Shown: positions 1 to 58,098 of the stretch, piece after piece
Layout of the letters: the number at the start of each line of letters is the position of its first letter
Numbering within the stretch: position 1 is the stretch's first letter
From: Prochloraceae cyanobacterium
GTDB lineage: Bacteria; Cyanobacteriota; Cyanobacteriia; Cyanobacteriales; JASJDA01
DNA: 61,087 nucleotides
Assembly: GCA_030065755.1 (NCBI GenBank)
Contig: JASJDA010000014.1
Location: 1-61,087 of the forward strand
Direction of reading: 5' to 3'
Translations under genes and position numbers: made by a program
The notes under the pieces: generated by a model
The model's input: only the letters and a program-made list of their open reading frames with translations
Database searches by the model: none
Told to the model about the DNA's origin: nothing

Positions 1-484
1 TCAAAGTATCGGCGTTTAAAAACTGTCCCTTTCGCGAATATTTACTGGTATCAACCTTTATATCCCCAAACTGGGATAGCAACTCTCTATATATTTTCTC
101 CTTTTCCTTGTCATATGTACCGATACTGTTATTACCAGCAAAACAGCATTGATAGTACAAAATTTCTAGATGCTTCAAACGGTGTTTAGTCCAACCCGTA
201 GACTCTATATACTCCTCGAAAAAATTCAATCCTGCTAAAAAACTTTTTTGCAAGAAAAAGAGACTCCATTTCTCTATTATTTTTCGATGTCCTGGGTTAA
301 TGACTTTTTGTTTTGTTTTCAGTCGCTTCAATATTCTAGAGAAAGATAATTGCTGTAGATCGTGACGATATAAATCTTCAAATCTATGCTTAAATTGTTT
401 TTGTTCGATGTAAGCTAATATTCCAATATTAAAACCAACTTCAAACAAAAATCCTAAATCTTCACCTAGTTTTGAGTCTGTCAT
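1..484 (-). CDS. Unrecognised protein, partial (3' end beyond window)
   Basis: Open frame of 161 codons starting with ATG at 484 (MTDSKLGEDLGFLFEVGF) and still open at the left edge, so the C-terminus is missing. The start overlaps the stop of the 1011 aa gene by four bases (ATGA), a classic translational-coupling arrangement, so the two products are probably made together. The visible part is rich in Leu, Phe, Lys and Glu with no Gly/Pro-rich breaks, which suggests an all-helical fold. No signal peptide or membrane segment is evident. I do not recognise the family. Its role is likely tied to that of its large partner; a small accessory subunit is an inference from gene order only. Confidence 0.8.
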   Translation of the reverse strand, partial: MTDSKLGEDLGFLFEVGFNIGILAYIEQKQFKHRFEDLYRHDLQQLSFSRILKRLKTKQKVINPGHRKIIEKWSLFFLQKSFLAGLNFFEEYIESTGWTKHRLKHLEILYYQCCFAGNNSIGTYDKEKEKIYRELLSQFGDIKVDTSKYSRKGQFLNADTL

Positions 485-3400
485 TTTTTCTCAGTGTTTC
501 GTTTCTCAAATAAAGCTTTTTTCACTTCTGTCAAAAATGCTAAGGAATTAAACTTTACGCTGCCATTCGCGTGATTAAATATGGATAAGGCGGAGACAGA
601 ATTAAAACCTATAATATTTTGGTATGGGTCGAGTTTTAAACTGATATTATTTGCTGCTTCGTACCTGGAAAAATGAAATAGAGTAAGAAACTCTAAAAGC
701 TCATTTTTTAGCTGACCGTCATATATTAAACCCTTCTTAATATCTTCGTCACCTAAAATACCTTCATAGATATTTAATAAGGTTGCATAAGACATAACCC
801 CATTGTAATGTCTGTCTTCTTTTCCTATTGTAATCCCGTTGAATAAATTAAAGAAGATAGCTATTTGTTTGTTGGGATTGTCGATCAAGTTTTCGTCTAA
901 CTCTGCGGTATCTTGAATATACAAGGACTTTGCTGAGATATTTTGCAGTTTAACCACATAATATTTATCAAAAAATACAGGATATATTTTAATGTCCTCT
1001 TTTTCTCCCTTCAAAGTTTGAATCACAGACTTTGACATAAAAAATAATTTTTCATCGTCATCTGCTTCTTCTGTGGTGATATTTAGGGTGTTACTATAGG
1101 GAGACTTAGCGATGTAGAAAAAATGTCTGTATCCTCGACGATCGTATAATGTATCTACCCAATCTCTGAGAATATTAGGACTTCTATGTATTTCCTTACT
1201 ATTGTAGTTTTCAGATAAAGTGCTAATTCTTTTTAGTCTAATCGTGTTATCTTCTTGACGTTCTAATCCGACAATTTCTCCTATTAAGTTAGTAATTTTG
1301 TAGTTGTCCTTTTTAGATCGATCGCATTCTCGACTGGAAACTACAATTATTGCTAATTTATTTACTTCACAAGTAGAAGGTGGATTATTGAGTTTGAATT
1401 TCTTGGGAAGTATGGAGTATAAAGAACTTAGAGCATTACGAATTTTAAATTGATTCCTATCTTTGATACAAAAACCTTGAGAATTCGAGCGATGTCCTTC
1501 ATTCAATAGATGAGATATAACTGCAAAAATAGAGCGCATGAATTCTTCTTCTACTGAAGATTCTTCCTTTTTGTTTAATTGGAATCTTAATATGGGTACA
1601 AACAAAGGTAGTTTAATTTGTTTTGCGGAATCTAGTAATATTCTTAAACTGATATAAGCAAGTAAGGAAAAGGTTAATTTATAAGTAAAAGCAGAGGTAG
1701 ATTTTAGATCTTTAAAAATATCTTCTCTCAGACGATCGTGGTTATAGGAAAACAGCAACATTTTTTGCTGCTTTAAATTGCGATTATAAATATTTACACA
1801 ATTCTCTTGACGAGGAGATACAAGTATGGGAAGAGCCTTAACTTTATCTATGTCATATTCCATACTGAAAGTTTGATTATCTTCTGTAGAGTAATATCGA
1901 ATTTCTTCAATTTTGATATTAGTAGAAAGGCTACATAAATAACTTGGATCTACTGTAGCTTCACTGACATCTATATATTGTAAAGCTGGTTTTAAATTGT
2001 CCTGTTTCAATACATCTTTGAATAAAGTATTATCCTTTAAAATAGTGTTTATCTCTTCTTCTAAAATGCTTTGTTTGACATTTATATTTACTGGATAGGT
2101 TCGCTCTTGCCAATGACTGCGTTGTTTTAATAGCTTTCTTAGTAGTGTTTTGAGTTTGTCTATTTTAGACTCAACTTGGTATTTTTCAAAACCTTTTATA
2201 ATATTTTGCCAAAGGTCTCGTTTCTTGTCATCATCATTGCCTTGAAAAGTTGGTAATACCTTTTGTTCAAAACTTTCTCTAGGATTGTATTCTAAGTCTA
2301 TTTCACTGGACTTACTAGCAAAGATAAAAAAATATAGAAGAGCAATTTTAAATACTTTTTCGACAAAATATTTTTTCTTATTAGGATCGGCGATCGCTTC
2401 TTTATGTTCTTTACTATTGGAATCGATAAGATTAGTAAAATACTTGAAAACAGTTTTACCTCCTTCTGTCTGAACTTTACCGCCTAACTTCAGTTTTACT
2501 CCAAATATGAATTGTTTTTCTCCTTTGTTTTCGTCGTTTATTTCTCCTAAATAACCCGATATTAAAGGTACAATAGGCAGCATATCGAAAGCATCAGCAC
2601 GAGAAAAAATGTCTTTTAAATTAACGGTTTCACCTGCATAATTTACTTCATACTCTCCGTCACTTTTATTGCGATCGCCTATATATTCTTCTATTAATCT
2701 AAGTCGCCTAATTAGGTCTTGTATATAGACAATATCAGCTCGATCGCCACAATGTTCTTGGATGAATGCTAAATATCTAATTTTTGCTTCTCTTTGAAGT
2801 TTACCCAAAGCTTCTGTATCCATCAGTCGCACTAGGCGATCGTAATGGCTATCTTTTTGTTGTATCTGGTCTTTGAAAATGTCATTAACATCTTCTCTGT
2901 CGTTTTCATCTTTAGAAGAAAATTCGTCTTCAATATAGTTTCTTACACCAGCTTGTAATTCTTCCTTAAACTTGCCAGTCTGTACGGTAATTATTAGTTT
3001 GTGACCTTTTAAAATTGGAGAATTACTAGATGGTTGTTTGCTAAAACTCAATCGCTGTTTTTGCAAACTTTTATATGTTTGTGTGAAATTATAATCAAAA
3101 TTTAAATTGGTATGCTGTTTTTTAAAATATATTAAATTACTTGCTATTTTTTCAATATAATCTTCAATAGTTGTCTTATTTTCTCCGTTAGACAAAACAT
3201 TTTCTAGTTTTTTGGTGAGACAATTTCTAATTTTTTGAATGTCTTCAATAAAACTATTTTTAGAGTCTGTATTGGCAAAATTTGTTGTCGCAGATTTAGC
3301 ATTGTAATCTGCACCCAGCAAAGGAGATATAATATTACCAGAAGAAGCAACTAAAAAAGCAATTTCGTCAATATCAATTCTTAATTGATTTCCACTTTGA

Positions 3401-3516
3401 GAAGGCTTAAATGGGTTATTCTCTGGAACTTGCAATTGTGTTAAAATCTTCTTCAGTAAATCGCTGTAATCTAAGGTGACTAGTCCGTTACTACCTTCTG
3501 TTAATTGATTTACCAT
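481..3516 (-). CDS. Large unrecognised protein (1011 aa), first gene of an operon
   Basis: Long intact AT-rich frame with an ATG start preceded by an AGGTAG-like ribosome site. I do not recognise the family and see no Walker A, RuvC, HNH, HD or zinc-ribbon motif. The first ~300 residues are charged and helical (many Lys/Glu/Gln). The middle (~350-620) is mixed. The last ~300 residues look like a separate alpha/beta domain that opens with a hydrophobic strand and an acidic/basic turn (KLAIIVVSSRECDRSKKDN), followed by RDWVDTLYDRRGYRHFF and a late HFSRYEAANNI segment. This size and layout is loosely like large nucleic-acid-binding defence proteins, but that is impression, not homology. HIP1-type GCGATCGC sites occur inside the gene, so it has long resided in a cyanobacterial genome. 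It is coupled by ATGA overlap to the gene at 484. Confidence 0.85.
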   Translation of the reverse strand: MVNQLTEGSNGLVTLDYSDLLKKILTQLQVPENNPFKPSQSGNQLRIDIDEIAFLVASSGNIISPLLGADYNAKSATTNFANTDSKNSFIEDIQKIRNCLTKKLENVLSNGENKTTIEDYIEKIASNLIYFKKQHTNLNFDYNFTQTYKSLQKQRLSFSKQPSSNSPILKGHKLIITVQTGKFKEELQAGVRNYIEDEFSSKDENDREDVNDIFKDQIQQKDSHYDRLVRLMDTEALGKLQREAKIRYLAFIQEHCGDRADIVYIQDLIRRLRLIEEYIGDRNKSDGEYEVNYAGETVNLKDIFSRADAFDMLPIVPLISGYLGEINDENKGEKQFIFGVKLKLGGKVQTEGGKTVFKYFTNLIDSNSKEHKEAIADPNKKKYFVEKVFKIALLYFFIFASKSSEIDLEYNPRESFEQKVLPTFQGNDDDKKRDLWQNIIKGFEKYQVESKIDKLKTLLRKLLKQRSHWQERTYPVNINVKQSILEEEINTILKDNTLFKDVLKQDNLKPALQYIDVSEATVDPSYLCSLSTNIKIEEIRYYSTEDNQTFSMEYDIDKVKALPILVSPRQENCVNIYNRNLKQQKMLLFSYNHDRLREDIFKDLKSTSAFTYKLTFSLLAYISLRILLDSAKQIKLPLFVPILRFQLNKKEESSVEEEFMRSIFAVISHLLNEGHRSNSQGFCIKDRNQFKIRNALSSLYSILPKKFKLNNPPSTCEVNKLAIIVVSSRECDRSKKDNYKITNLIGEIVGLERQEDNTIRLKRISTLSENYNSKEIHRSPNILRDWVDTLYDRRGYRHFFYIAKSPYSNTLNITTEEADDDEKLFFMSKSVIQTLKGEKEDIKIYPVFFDKYYVVKLQNISAKSLYIQDTAELDENLIDNPNKQIAIFFNLFNGITIGKEDRHYNGVMSYATLLNIYEGILGDEDIKKGLIYDGQLKNELLEFLTLFHFSRYEAANNISLKLDPYQNIIGFNSVSALSIFNHANGSVKFNSLAFLTEVKKALFEKRNTEKK

Positions 3517-4698: not shown

Positions 4699-5940
4699 TC
4701 ACGATGCTAGCTTTCTGCTTCTTACTGTGCCAACTAGAATATTGTGACCAATACTCCCCGTCGCATCCAGTCCACAGACATTTTCTAGAACGCTATGCCC
4801 TAGCGCGCTTACTCCACGATTTCTAATCTCTTGTGCTGCTGCTACATCTCTTGTGGTTGTATACCCGCACTCGCTACAGCTATGAATTCTAATATCCAAA
4901 GTCTTTTTACCTGTATGTTCGCCGCAGTTAGGACAGGTCTGGCTAGTACCATCCTTGTTCACTTTGGCAAAGTAAGTATCGGTTTTCTGTGCCACCCACT
5001 CTAAGATGTTTACAAATTGCCCAAAACCAGCATCGGCACTATGTTTTGACAACATTCCTCTTTGCCAACTGACAAAATTAATGTCTTCTACAAACAGCAT
5101 CCCTACGCCATTGCACAAGTGATGAGCTAGTTTAAAATGCCAATCTTTACGAGTGTCGGATATACGTTGATGCAGCCTAGCTATTTTCTGGTTTAATTTG
5201 TGTCGATTATTGGATCCTTTCTGCTTATTTCTCAGTCTACGTTGCAGCAATTTAAGCTTGCTTTGTAGGGTTCTAAGAAATTTAGGACGTTTAATCTCCT
5301 CGCCATCACTAGTAGATATAAACTTGTCAAAACCTAAATCTAAACCTCTGGGATGACCGTGAGGTATTGGGTTAGGCATATCGACATCTAACTGTAGTGA
5401 CAGCATCACAAAATAACCAGATGCTTTTCTTACTATCCTTGCTTGTTTAGGAACGACGCCGTCAGGAATCGCACGAGACATTCTCCATTTAACCACTTTC
5501 AAACCAGGTAATTTAATTGAATCATTCGAGATGGGATTTTTATTTAACTGAGGAAAAACAAACGATCGCATTCGATATTTGTTTTTGAATCTAGGCATTC
5601 CAAAACCCCTAACCTTCATATCATCCCAAGCTCTGTCTAAAGTTCTTAACGTTTGCTGTAAAACTTGAGCGTTAGCAGATTTGAGGAATTCGTTATCTTT
5701 TTTGGCTTCAGTTAATAATTTGGCTTGTTTGTGGTAGTTGGGAAATGGCTCGTCAACTGACATAATGTATTCCTTATCAATTGAACAAGCATTAACAGGA
5801 GACTTACGACTAGCACACCAATCCTTGCGATGCCTTAACGCAAAGTTCCAAACGGAGCGACAAACATCAAGAGTGTTCTCAATATATGCGATCTGTTCTT
5901 TAGTTGGTTCTAGCTTGAATTCGTAAGCTAAAGTAATCAT
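4699..5940 (-). CDS. tnpB: TnpB RNA-guided endonuclease (IS200/IS605 OrfB), intact
   Basis: 413 aa, full length for the family. The three RuvC acidic residues are present: D201 in RGLDLGFDKF, E285 in LFVEDINF and D365 in TTRDVAAAQ. The zinc ribbon is complete (C336-x2-C339 in CPNCG and C355-x2-C358 in CSECG). The N-terminal region (MITLAYEFKLEPTKEQ) matches the usual HTH/wedge part of the family. TnpB proteins are known to cut DNA next to a transposon-associated motif using an RNA encoded at the 3' end of the element, which maintains the element. All catalytic residues are intact, so it may be active. It is flanked by identical hairpins on both sides. Confidence 0.95.
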   Translation of the reverse strand: MITLAYEFKLEPTKEQIAYIENTLDVCRSVWNFALRHRKDWCASRKSPVNACSIDKEYIMSVDEPFPNYHKQAKLLTEAKKDNEFLKSANAQVLQQTLRTLDRAWDDMKVRGFGMPRFKNKYRMRSFVFPQLNKNPISNDSIKLPGLKVVKWRMSRAIPDGVVPKQARIVRKASGYFVMLSLQLDVDMPNPIPHGHPRGLDLGFDKFISTSDGEEIKRPKFLRTLQSKLKLLQRRLRNKQKGSNNRHKLNQKIARLHQRISDTRKDWHFKLAHHLCNGVGMLFVEDINFVSWQRGMLSKHSADAGFGQFVNILEWVAQKTDTYFAKVNKDGTSQTCPNCGEHTGKKTLDIRIHSCSECGYTTTRDVAAAQEIRNRGVSALGHSVLENVCGLDATGSIGHNILVGTVRSRKLAS

Positions 5941-57035: not shown

Positions 57036-57680
57036 TTAAGGTGACAACCGTTCCCTAATCCAGTTCCCATTTTCTGCTAATCTATAGCGCAGGCGATCGT
57101 GCAAGCGATTGGGACGACCTTGCCAAAATTCAAATTCAGAAGGAATTAATCTAAATCCCCCCCAATGAGGTGGACGGGGAATTTCCTTATCTGCGTATTT
57201 TTGCTCTAACTCCTCTAATTTGCTCTGTAGCACCTCGCGACTAGCAATAACCTCCGTTTGTTTTGATACCCAAGCACCTAGCTGGGAACCGCGAGGGCGA
57301 GTGCTAAAATAGGCATCTGACTCTGCTGAGGAGACCTTTTCCGCCTTACCTTCAACTCTGACTTGCCGTTCTAATTCTATCCAAAAAAAAACCAGTGCAG
57401 CTTGAGGATTTTCCAATAGGTGTTGTCCTTTAACACTTTCGTAATTAGTAAAGAAAACAAAACCGCGATCGTCTACATCTTTGAGCAGTACAATCCGAGC
57501 TGAAGGTTTTCCCTCCGAACTAATAGTAGCTAGGGTCATTGCGTTGGGTTCGGTTAAATTGGCATCTACTGCCTGTTGAAACCAAATTTTAAACTGATCT
57601 ATAGGGGAGATAGCAGCATCGGCTTCGCTGAATCCAGCAAGAGTATAATTGCGGCGCAGATCGGCAATAGATAAGTTCAT
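57036..57680 (-). CDS. pdxH: Pyridoxamine 5'-phosphate oxidase
   Basis: 214 aa from ATG 57680 (MNLSIADLRRNY), the usual family length; a longer frame from 57713 adds 11 residues that do not fit. FMN- and PLP-binding landmarks: PSARIVLLKDVDDRGFVFFT, WIELERQVRVEG, RPRGSQLGAWVSKQ and the C-terminal FWQGRPNRLHDRLRY. It oxidises PNP/PMP to PLP, the cofactor of glgP among others. Confidence 0.96.
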   Translation of the reverse strand: MNLSIADLRRNYTLAGFSEADAAISPIDQFKIWFQQAVDANLTEPNAMTLATISSEGKPSARIVLLKDVDDRGFVFFTNYESVKGQHLLENPQAALVFFWIELERQVRVEGKAEKVSSAESDAYFSTRPRGSQLGAWVSKQTEVIASREVLQSKLEELEQKYADKEIPRPPHWGGFRLIPSEFEFWQGRPNRLHDRLRYRLAENGNWIRERLSP

Positions 57681-58098
57681 GAAAATACTTTGAAACGTGG
57701 AAACCGATATCATTATATGGAGTGCAGGTTTTTTGAGTGGAAACCTGCAAAACCTCCCATGTTTGCTACGTCCTTACGCTGAGGTTTTCCTCAGCGCGGG
57801 CGGTGCGCCTGCTGGGGTAATGTTTGCCTCGCCAAAGTTATCGGTCGGTACTATCCCAAAAGCACTGTTTTACCCCTCGTAAGACTGTTTAACTTTTGAG
57901 TTCTAGAGCTTGGAGCTGGCAAGCACTCCAAGGTAGGAACTTTAACACTTGCCGATAACGTAGTCCGCAATAGGACTGAGGCTGGTCAGCTAACTAAAGG
58001 TTTGAGGCTTGAAGCTCTGTAACTTTAGTGCGGGGTGCTGACTGCATTGTTACCTCAAGAGATTATCATATTAAATTGAGCTATAGAGGAGTCAGTCA
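57681..58098. other. Intergenic region with mobile-element remnants
   Basis: No gene. It has a hairpin GCAGGTTT/AAACCTGC (57724-57748), the dispersed repeat copy 2 (57769-57802), then GC-rich sequence with paired segments (GGAGCTGGCAAGCACTCC) and a GCTTGAAGCTC...AGTGCGGGGTGC stretch resembling the 3' structured end of an IS200/IS605-type element without its gene. Confidence 0.4.
57769..57802. repeat. Dispersed hairpin repeat, copy 2
   Basis: CGTCCTTAC-G-CTGAGG-TTTT-CCTCAGCGCGGGCG. It differs from 13157-13189 only at one arm base and in the loop; here the stem is a perfect 8 bp (CGCTGAGG/CCTCAGCG). Confidence 0.65.

Follow-up and report, generated by a model that had tools for sequence, protein, structure and literature searches.

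In ApsAB of Escherichia coli ST38 an Argonaute-like protein acts together with a helicase-nuclease to eliminate plasmids, and systems resembling it have been reported in some cyanobacteria and beta- and gamma-proteobacteria (PMC11096173); in DdmDE of Vibrio cholerae an inactive, guide-binding Argonaute recruits a helicase-nuclease that destroys plasmids (PMC12904381). The pPIWI-RE systems have a three-gene order of restriction endonuclease (REase), DinG helicase and PIWI protein (Burroughs et al. 2013, PMC3702460). Here we describe a two-gene operon, A-B, at the left end of contig JASJDA010000014.1 from a Prochloraceae cyanobacterium (assembly GCA_030065755.1; the whole 61,087-nucleotide stretch analysed is called the window). 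Protein A (1011 amino acids, aa) has a predicted Argonaute-like fold, and protein B (1226 aa) is a superfamily 2 (SF2) helicase. We read A-B, at a probability of roughly 0.6, as a horizontally moving two-gene module for guide-directed interference with plasmid or phage DNA. No published description of this exact pair was found in the literature searched, outside which most subscription papers lay.

A-B resembles ApsAB in being a two-gene operon with an Argonaute-like product recognizable by structure only, missed by sequence among the prokaryotic Argonautes (pAgos), in having a giant SF2 helicase with a nuclease-type domain, in the Gln-Gly (QG) of a MID-like motif, and in its mobile-island setting. 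The helicase gene comes first in ApsAB, whereas A precedes B; the nuclease domain of ApsA is C-terminal with a normal DxK, whereas the nuclease-like domain of B is N-terminal and without the Lys; and a PIWI RNase H fold is absent from ApsB in the view of its authors, while the alignment of A extends across MID-PIWI. The MID motif of ApsB is Y[X]3K[X]nQG[X]nK, with K413, a residue other than the QG, shown to be essential (PMC11096173); in A the QG is found in 31/31 sequences, but the Y[X]3K part is not conserved, a Y...K within 60 residues upstream of the QG occurring in just 10/31. Given the reversed gene order, the displaced nuclease-like domain lacking its Lys and the unconserved Y[X]3K, we do not claim ApsAB membership for A-B. 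The mechanism proposed below would be the same in kind as that of DdmDE, an inactive Argonaute recruiting a helicase-nuclease. The helicase gene is first in DdmDE too, in contrast to A-B. A-B was compared with both systems by their general descriptions, and the best reading, by analogy, is that A-B would work like ApsAB or DdmDE while departing from them in sequence, in the order of the genes and in where the nuclease-like domain lies.

The two proteins of the operon

A model of A was made with AlphaFold2 from an alignment of 45 relatives (the family has more than 50 sequences overall), with a predicted local distance difference test score (pLDDT) of 83.7 and a predicted template modelling score (pTM) of 0.82. 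Foldseek matched it to 42 PDB chains at E<=0.001, all of them Argonautes (best 4ncb, E 4e-6) and among them long, short, bacterial, archaeal and eukaryotic ones; the first non-Argonaute match, the HerA-NurA complex, came at 0.02. All 50 of the 50 VIA-align rows were likewise Argonautes, with Z up to 10.3 and 299-329 residues aligned over residues 154-999 at a root-mean-square deviation of 4.3-4.7, while against short pAgos 340-350 residues were aligned over residues 536-1000, with TMt up to 0.42. No DdmE or ApsB chain stands among the 50 listed matches, which in lists so dominated by Argonautes is uninformative either way, and a search of BFVD folds gave nothing below 0.04.

By sequence, A gave only noise against Pfam, NCBIfam, PADLOC and PHROGs; no Pfam match was found in the 45 members, nor any match to PF02171 (PIWI) in the A family, and a PDB sequence search with A and B profiles returned nothing significant. 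In hhalign comparisons, pPIWI-RE and pAgo profiles recovered each other (E 2.8e-4), whereas A could be linked neither to cyanobacterial pAgos nor to pPIWI-REs, even when the A alignment comprised 31 sequences from two phyla. Because the method succeeds between those two families and fails for A, we place A, with its predicted Argonaute-like fold, outside the sequence families of both.

A-B shares with pPIWI-RE systems a large protein with a C-terminal MID-PIWI-type fold (predicted for A), a helicase in the operon, and a patchy, mobile distribution; it differs in lacking a REase gene, in its two-gene order of A then B, and in the absence of a conserved DinG-type Cys cluster from B. The possibility that A is itself a pPIWI-RE was ruled out, since it has neither a PF13032 match nor the hhalign link. 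A genuine pPIWI-RE is encoded separately in the same genome (G000:C180:7701-8561, L066), and the PF13032 search finds it and neither A copy. The likeness to pAgos (long and short; SPARTA, SPARDA) lies in the fold predicted for about residues 154-999 of A, best covered in MID-PIWI; the differences are that A lacks a PF02171 match, an hhalign link and, apparently, a catalytic DEDX at the aligned positions, and that its partner is a 1226 aa helicase, not an APAZ effector.

Residues invariant in A across both subfamilies of the operon (type I, and a second, type II, described below) include Q680-G681, G795, Y910, H948, L962-x-P964 and A993, among others. Q680-G681 is located in the MID-like region, the part with which Argonautes grip the 5' end of the guide; K705 is kept in 42/45 A sequences, in type I only. 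Active Argonautes carry Asp at set positions on the RNase H strands, and many pAgos lack the DEDX tetrad. When the predicted RNase H strands of A were mapped by topology, none of the 45 type-I sequences had an Asp at the centre of beta1 (VVSSRE) or at the usual place in beta4 (YIAKAP), and type-II A, mapped in the same way, had no consistent Asp there. Because VVSSRE and YIAKAP stand where active Argonautes have Asp, we infer that A does not cleave and is apparently catalytically dead. Gene A is genuine, intact and under purifying selection: dN/dS between the two A copies of the genome is 0.12/0.33, or about 0.37.

The end of the contig truncates B in the window, and the sole full B assembled in the genome is that of the second A-B copy (G000:C199; L003:6951-10631). 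Helicase_C scored above its cut-off in this full-length B, and Helicase_C and P-loop matches were obtained for 17/17 B proteins. The motifs GxPGIGKT, DEhxGD, DAS, TxxxRGxSxP and QhhYRxRG are shared by 21 cyanobacterial and proteobacterial sequences, the Walker A, Walker B and motif VI elements (GxPGIGKT, DEhxGD and QhhYRxRG) being conserved in 21/21. A B model (pLDDT 66, made without the plasmid sequences) matched the SF2 helicases Brr2, UvrB, Mfd and RIG-I with Foldseek and VIA-align, the VIA rows spanning mainly residues 333-932. B is an SF2 helicase with a two-RecA fold. The 21 B proteins have no conserved Cys and no conserved Lys after motif VI (residue 866), and PADLOC gave only a weak mad8 match.

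Within the first 330 residues of B, E15, G153, D159, (D/E)176-x-S178, K244, K248 and Q251-x3-Y255 are invariant or nearly so in both phyla, and the window fragment carries the first three of these. Together with the order of the strands predicted near D159 and D176, these residues would fit a PD-(D/E)XK domain with a RecB-type QxxxY, and the invariant K244, K248 and Q251-x3-Y255 may compensate for the absent Lys. This N-terminal domain has no Pfam match and no PDB sequence match.

The original prediction, made from the window alone, had seen an operon of a 1011 aa protein overlapping its partner by ATGA; its coordinates proved exact and A intact, and its statement that A carries no assignable motif held for Pfam, NCBIfam and PADLOC. 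Its suggestion that the C-terminal residues of A be compared with PIWI folds gave a positive result at the level of fold. It had further described a helical partner and no helicase motif, readings that arose because the contig end cuts B: the former fits the visible 161-residue fragment but not the full protein, and the latter was wrong, the partner in its full length being an SF2 helicase with both Walker motifs and motif VI.

Pairing, distribution and mobility

Relatives of A, nearly all full length, were found at 21 loci in genome contigs and in 42/386 cyanobacterial genomes (11%), and a B or B-like match in 56/386. All 42 of the A-positive genomes have B, and in 38 A lies directly before B on the same strand (a hand count over the places listed, with gaps of up to ~2 kb allowed), the spacing of the window copy or a very short one recurring in many relatives. 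In the remaining four, a contig edge falls between A and B (two genomes), the genes are 7.5 kb apart (G187) or they are on separate contigs (G131). One genome (G051) has decayed copies of both.

Ten further B-like genes that we read all belong to the type-II subfamily, whose B'' proteins are ~1270-1340 aa. A'' precedes B'' in 10/10 of the type-II loci read; one A'' is shortened, and nine long A'' were found by the type-I profile at E 2e-16 to 3e-25. Type II occurs in cyanobacteria and on plasmids of Cupriavidus, Acinetobacter and Acetobacter. Among 72,556 plasmids, relatives of A and of full-length B were found on the same ten records, A upstream in 10/10, and an eleventh plasmid, from Stanieria, carries a B that is truncated and lies next to a transposase. 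No relative of A was found in viral contigs or phage records, and none of B in phage records.

The type-I plasmid copies are, in 6/6 cases, on plasmids typed conjugative, and integrases and transposases lie near plasmid copies. The A of a Fischerella contig and that of a plasmid from Trichormus variabilis are nearly identical, from which we judge that A-B has recently been transferred horizontally; in T. variabilis ATCC 29413 the pair lies on plasmid C (AVA_RS29110-29105).

Defence-related neighbours were seen at some loci. In Acinetobacter sp. PK01 a gene for a PDC-S37/Hhe-like protein lies downstream of B; in G048 the candidate defence genes HEC-01A and HEC-01B (L105:432-2233; G048:C329) precede the A of a type-II pair by ~1.3 kb; a WYL regulator gene is adjacent in A. 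piscicola; and toxin-antitoxin genes and a STAND-type ATPase occur near plasmid copies. The ATPase, a large protein with a weak match to the effector-associated EAD10, follows A-B on an Aulosira plasmid (L024:17519-21160), and a gene of similar size is at the same place in Fischerella (L055:16540-20160); this may be a further defence gene that moves together with A-B.

Some loci depart from the simple layout. In three, one B lies between two A genes from separate lineages in an A-B-A arrangement (L008:3325-13015, L010:6083-15794 and L017:6652-16348), and in four (L021, L013, L022 and L053) A and B are 0.2-1.2 kb apart, the gap holding a 180 aa open reading frame (ORF) in L013 and an opposite-strand 152 aa ORF in L021.

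Proposed function and its alternatives

Under the mechanism that we propose, A would bind a short guide with its 5' end in a MID-like pocket bearing the invariant Gln-Gly; the guided A would locate complementary foreign nucleic acid and load B onto this target; and B would unwind and possibly cut it, with removal of plasmid or phage DNA as the outcome. We favor defence because of the patchy spread, the conjugative plasmids, the recent transfer, the low G+C content (GC), the pairing across phyla and the defence neighbours at some loci, and the defence or conflict role put forward in the original prediction is thus supported, the interpretation given there as a whole in part. If the proposal is true, the few Argonaute-helicase systems that act against plasmids would gain a member, and there would be PIWI-like proteins that escape sequence libraries; conjugative plasmids of cyanobacteria amenable to genetics would also offer a natural system of two genes in which guide use and target choice are directly testable. 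The broader claim, that A stands for one more major PIWI family of prokaryotes, additional to pAgo and pPIWI-RE and too divergent for sequence detection, belonging to an undescribed guided defence of at least two phyla whose helicase has a rewired PD-(D/E)X(S) domain, we advance tentatively, at somewhat short of even odds.

Several observations weigh against the proposal. The relation of A to Argonautes comes from a single predicted model and has no counterpart in the hhalign comparisons. The PD-(D/E)XK-like assignment at the N-terminus of B comes from motif reading, and the expected active site is incomplete, position 178 being Ser, not Lys, in 21/21; because the usual catalytic Lys is replaced, B may not cut at all, contrary to the nuclease role. 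Four loci (L007, L016, L019 and L020) have A without B nearby, and the defence neighbours above were chosen by eye, not by an unbiased survey. In Microcoleus and Oscillatoria, moreover, the operon occupies a settled chromosomal site beside pheT and a gene for a YciI-like protein, its other flank in Microcoleus being bcp.

This last site is an argument for seeing A-B as a cyanobacterial housekeeping module for DNA repair, recombination or transcript processing, and the intactness of the genes under purifying selection fits that as well. The pheT site, however, holds at least three separate A lineages, including A-B-A arrangements and orphan A genes of the second-A lineage, and because several distinct lineages occupy it, we take it for a probable hotspot of exchange and not for the place of a housekeeping operon. 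A stable housekeeping context, which the original prediction had set against defence, is therefore seen only in part. Presence in just 11% of the sampled cyanobacterial genomes, patchiness within families, transfer by plasmids and reach into proteobacterial plasmids also speak against a housekeeping role, which we consider very improbable. We find it less improbable, yet still unlikely, that A-B is no separate system but belongs, as a diverged branch, to the ApsAB/DdmDE family, whose presence in cyanobacteria has been noted before: the same kinds of Argonaute-like and helicase/nuclease-like proteins are paired, a conserved QG lies in a MID-like region, and the reported taxonomic range of ApsAB-like systems (PMC11096173) would accommodate it, but A comes first, the nuclease-like domain is N-terminal with no conserved Lys past motif VI, and only a minority of A proteins have the Y[X]3K seen in ApsB ahead of the QG.

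A more serious contender, although we would bet against it, is a conflict module borne by plasmids or integrative and conjugative elements that protects the carrier in inter-plasmid competition rather than the host. The uniformly conjugative type-I plasmids and their nearby integrases and transposases would suit such a module, but most of the copies found sit in a chromosome or on a contig without placement, and some keep to a fixed site; the mechanism would moreover be identical to that of guide-directed interference in host defence, the beneficiary alone differing.

Features of the window

Table 1. Coordinates of the A-B operon and its parts in the window
Feature	Position	Strand	Remarks
Gene A, 1011 aa, Argonaute/PIWI-like predicted fold, apparently without catalytic residues	481-3516	-	Intact ORF, ATG start
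Gene B, first 161 residues only, start of the putative PD-(D/E)XK-like N-terminal domain	2-484	-	ORF, ATG start; runs off the left contig edge
ATGA overlap of A stop and B start	481-484	-	Minus-strand reading
A residues 154-999, range aligned to Argonaute structures	520-3057	-	VIA-align
A predicted MID-PIWI part, residues ~540-1000	517-1899	-	VIA-align, short Ago and MID-PIWI chains (model range from 536-546 to 1000)
Q680-G681 codons, candidate MID site for the guide 5' end	1474-1479	-	Invariant in 31/31 A sequences, two phyla
Contig-edge stretch identical to B of the second operon copy	1-130		Assembly break at repeat

The source genome (G000) is an assembly of 8.46 Mb in 455 contigs, in which the A of the second copy, on contig C199, is ~77-78% identical to that of the window. 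The two B genes are identical over the first 130 bases of the window and ~86% identical over the following 350, and the contig ends at this point because the two copies become indistinguishable there. A common origin of the two contig ends in a tandem A-B-A-B array is unsupported, as the 15 bases that precede the C199 copy do not match the end of B.

The GC is 31.5% over positions 1-3516 and 40.4% over the remaining window. The HIP1 sites inside A (at 2390 and 2671), taken in the original prediction as arguing against very recent import, are real; import from another cyanobacterium is nonetheless compatible with them, and the GC is low. The TnpB element to which the same prediction had drawn attention is also real, an intact TnpB-family protein being encoded at 4699-5940 (-), 1.2 kb from A (NCBIfam guided_TnpB, 272 bits), but TnpB does not recur beside relatives of A-B and its closeness looks incidental.

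Far from the operon, a HEARO RNA (RF02033, 146 bits) was found at 57817-58042 (-). HEARO is an RNA that normally accompanies IscB; because the ORF next to it here (57036-57713) encodes a pyridoxamine oxidase, it may be an orphan omega-RNA.

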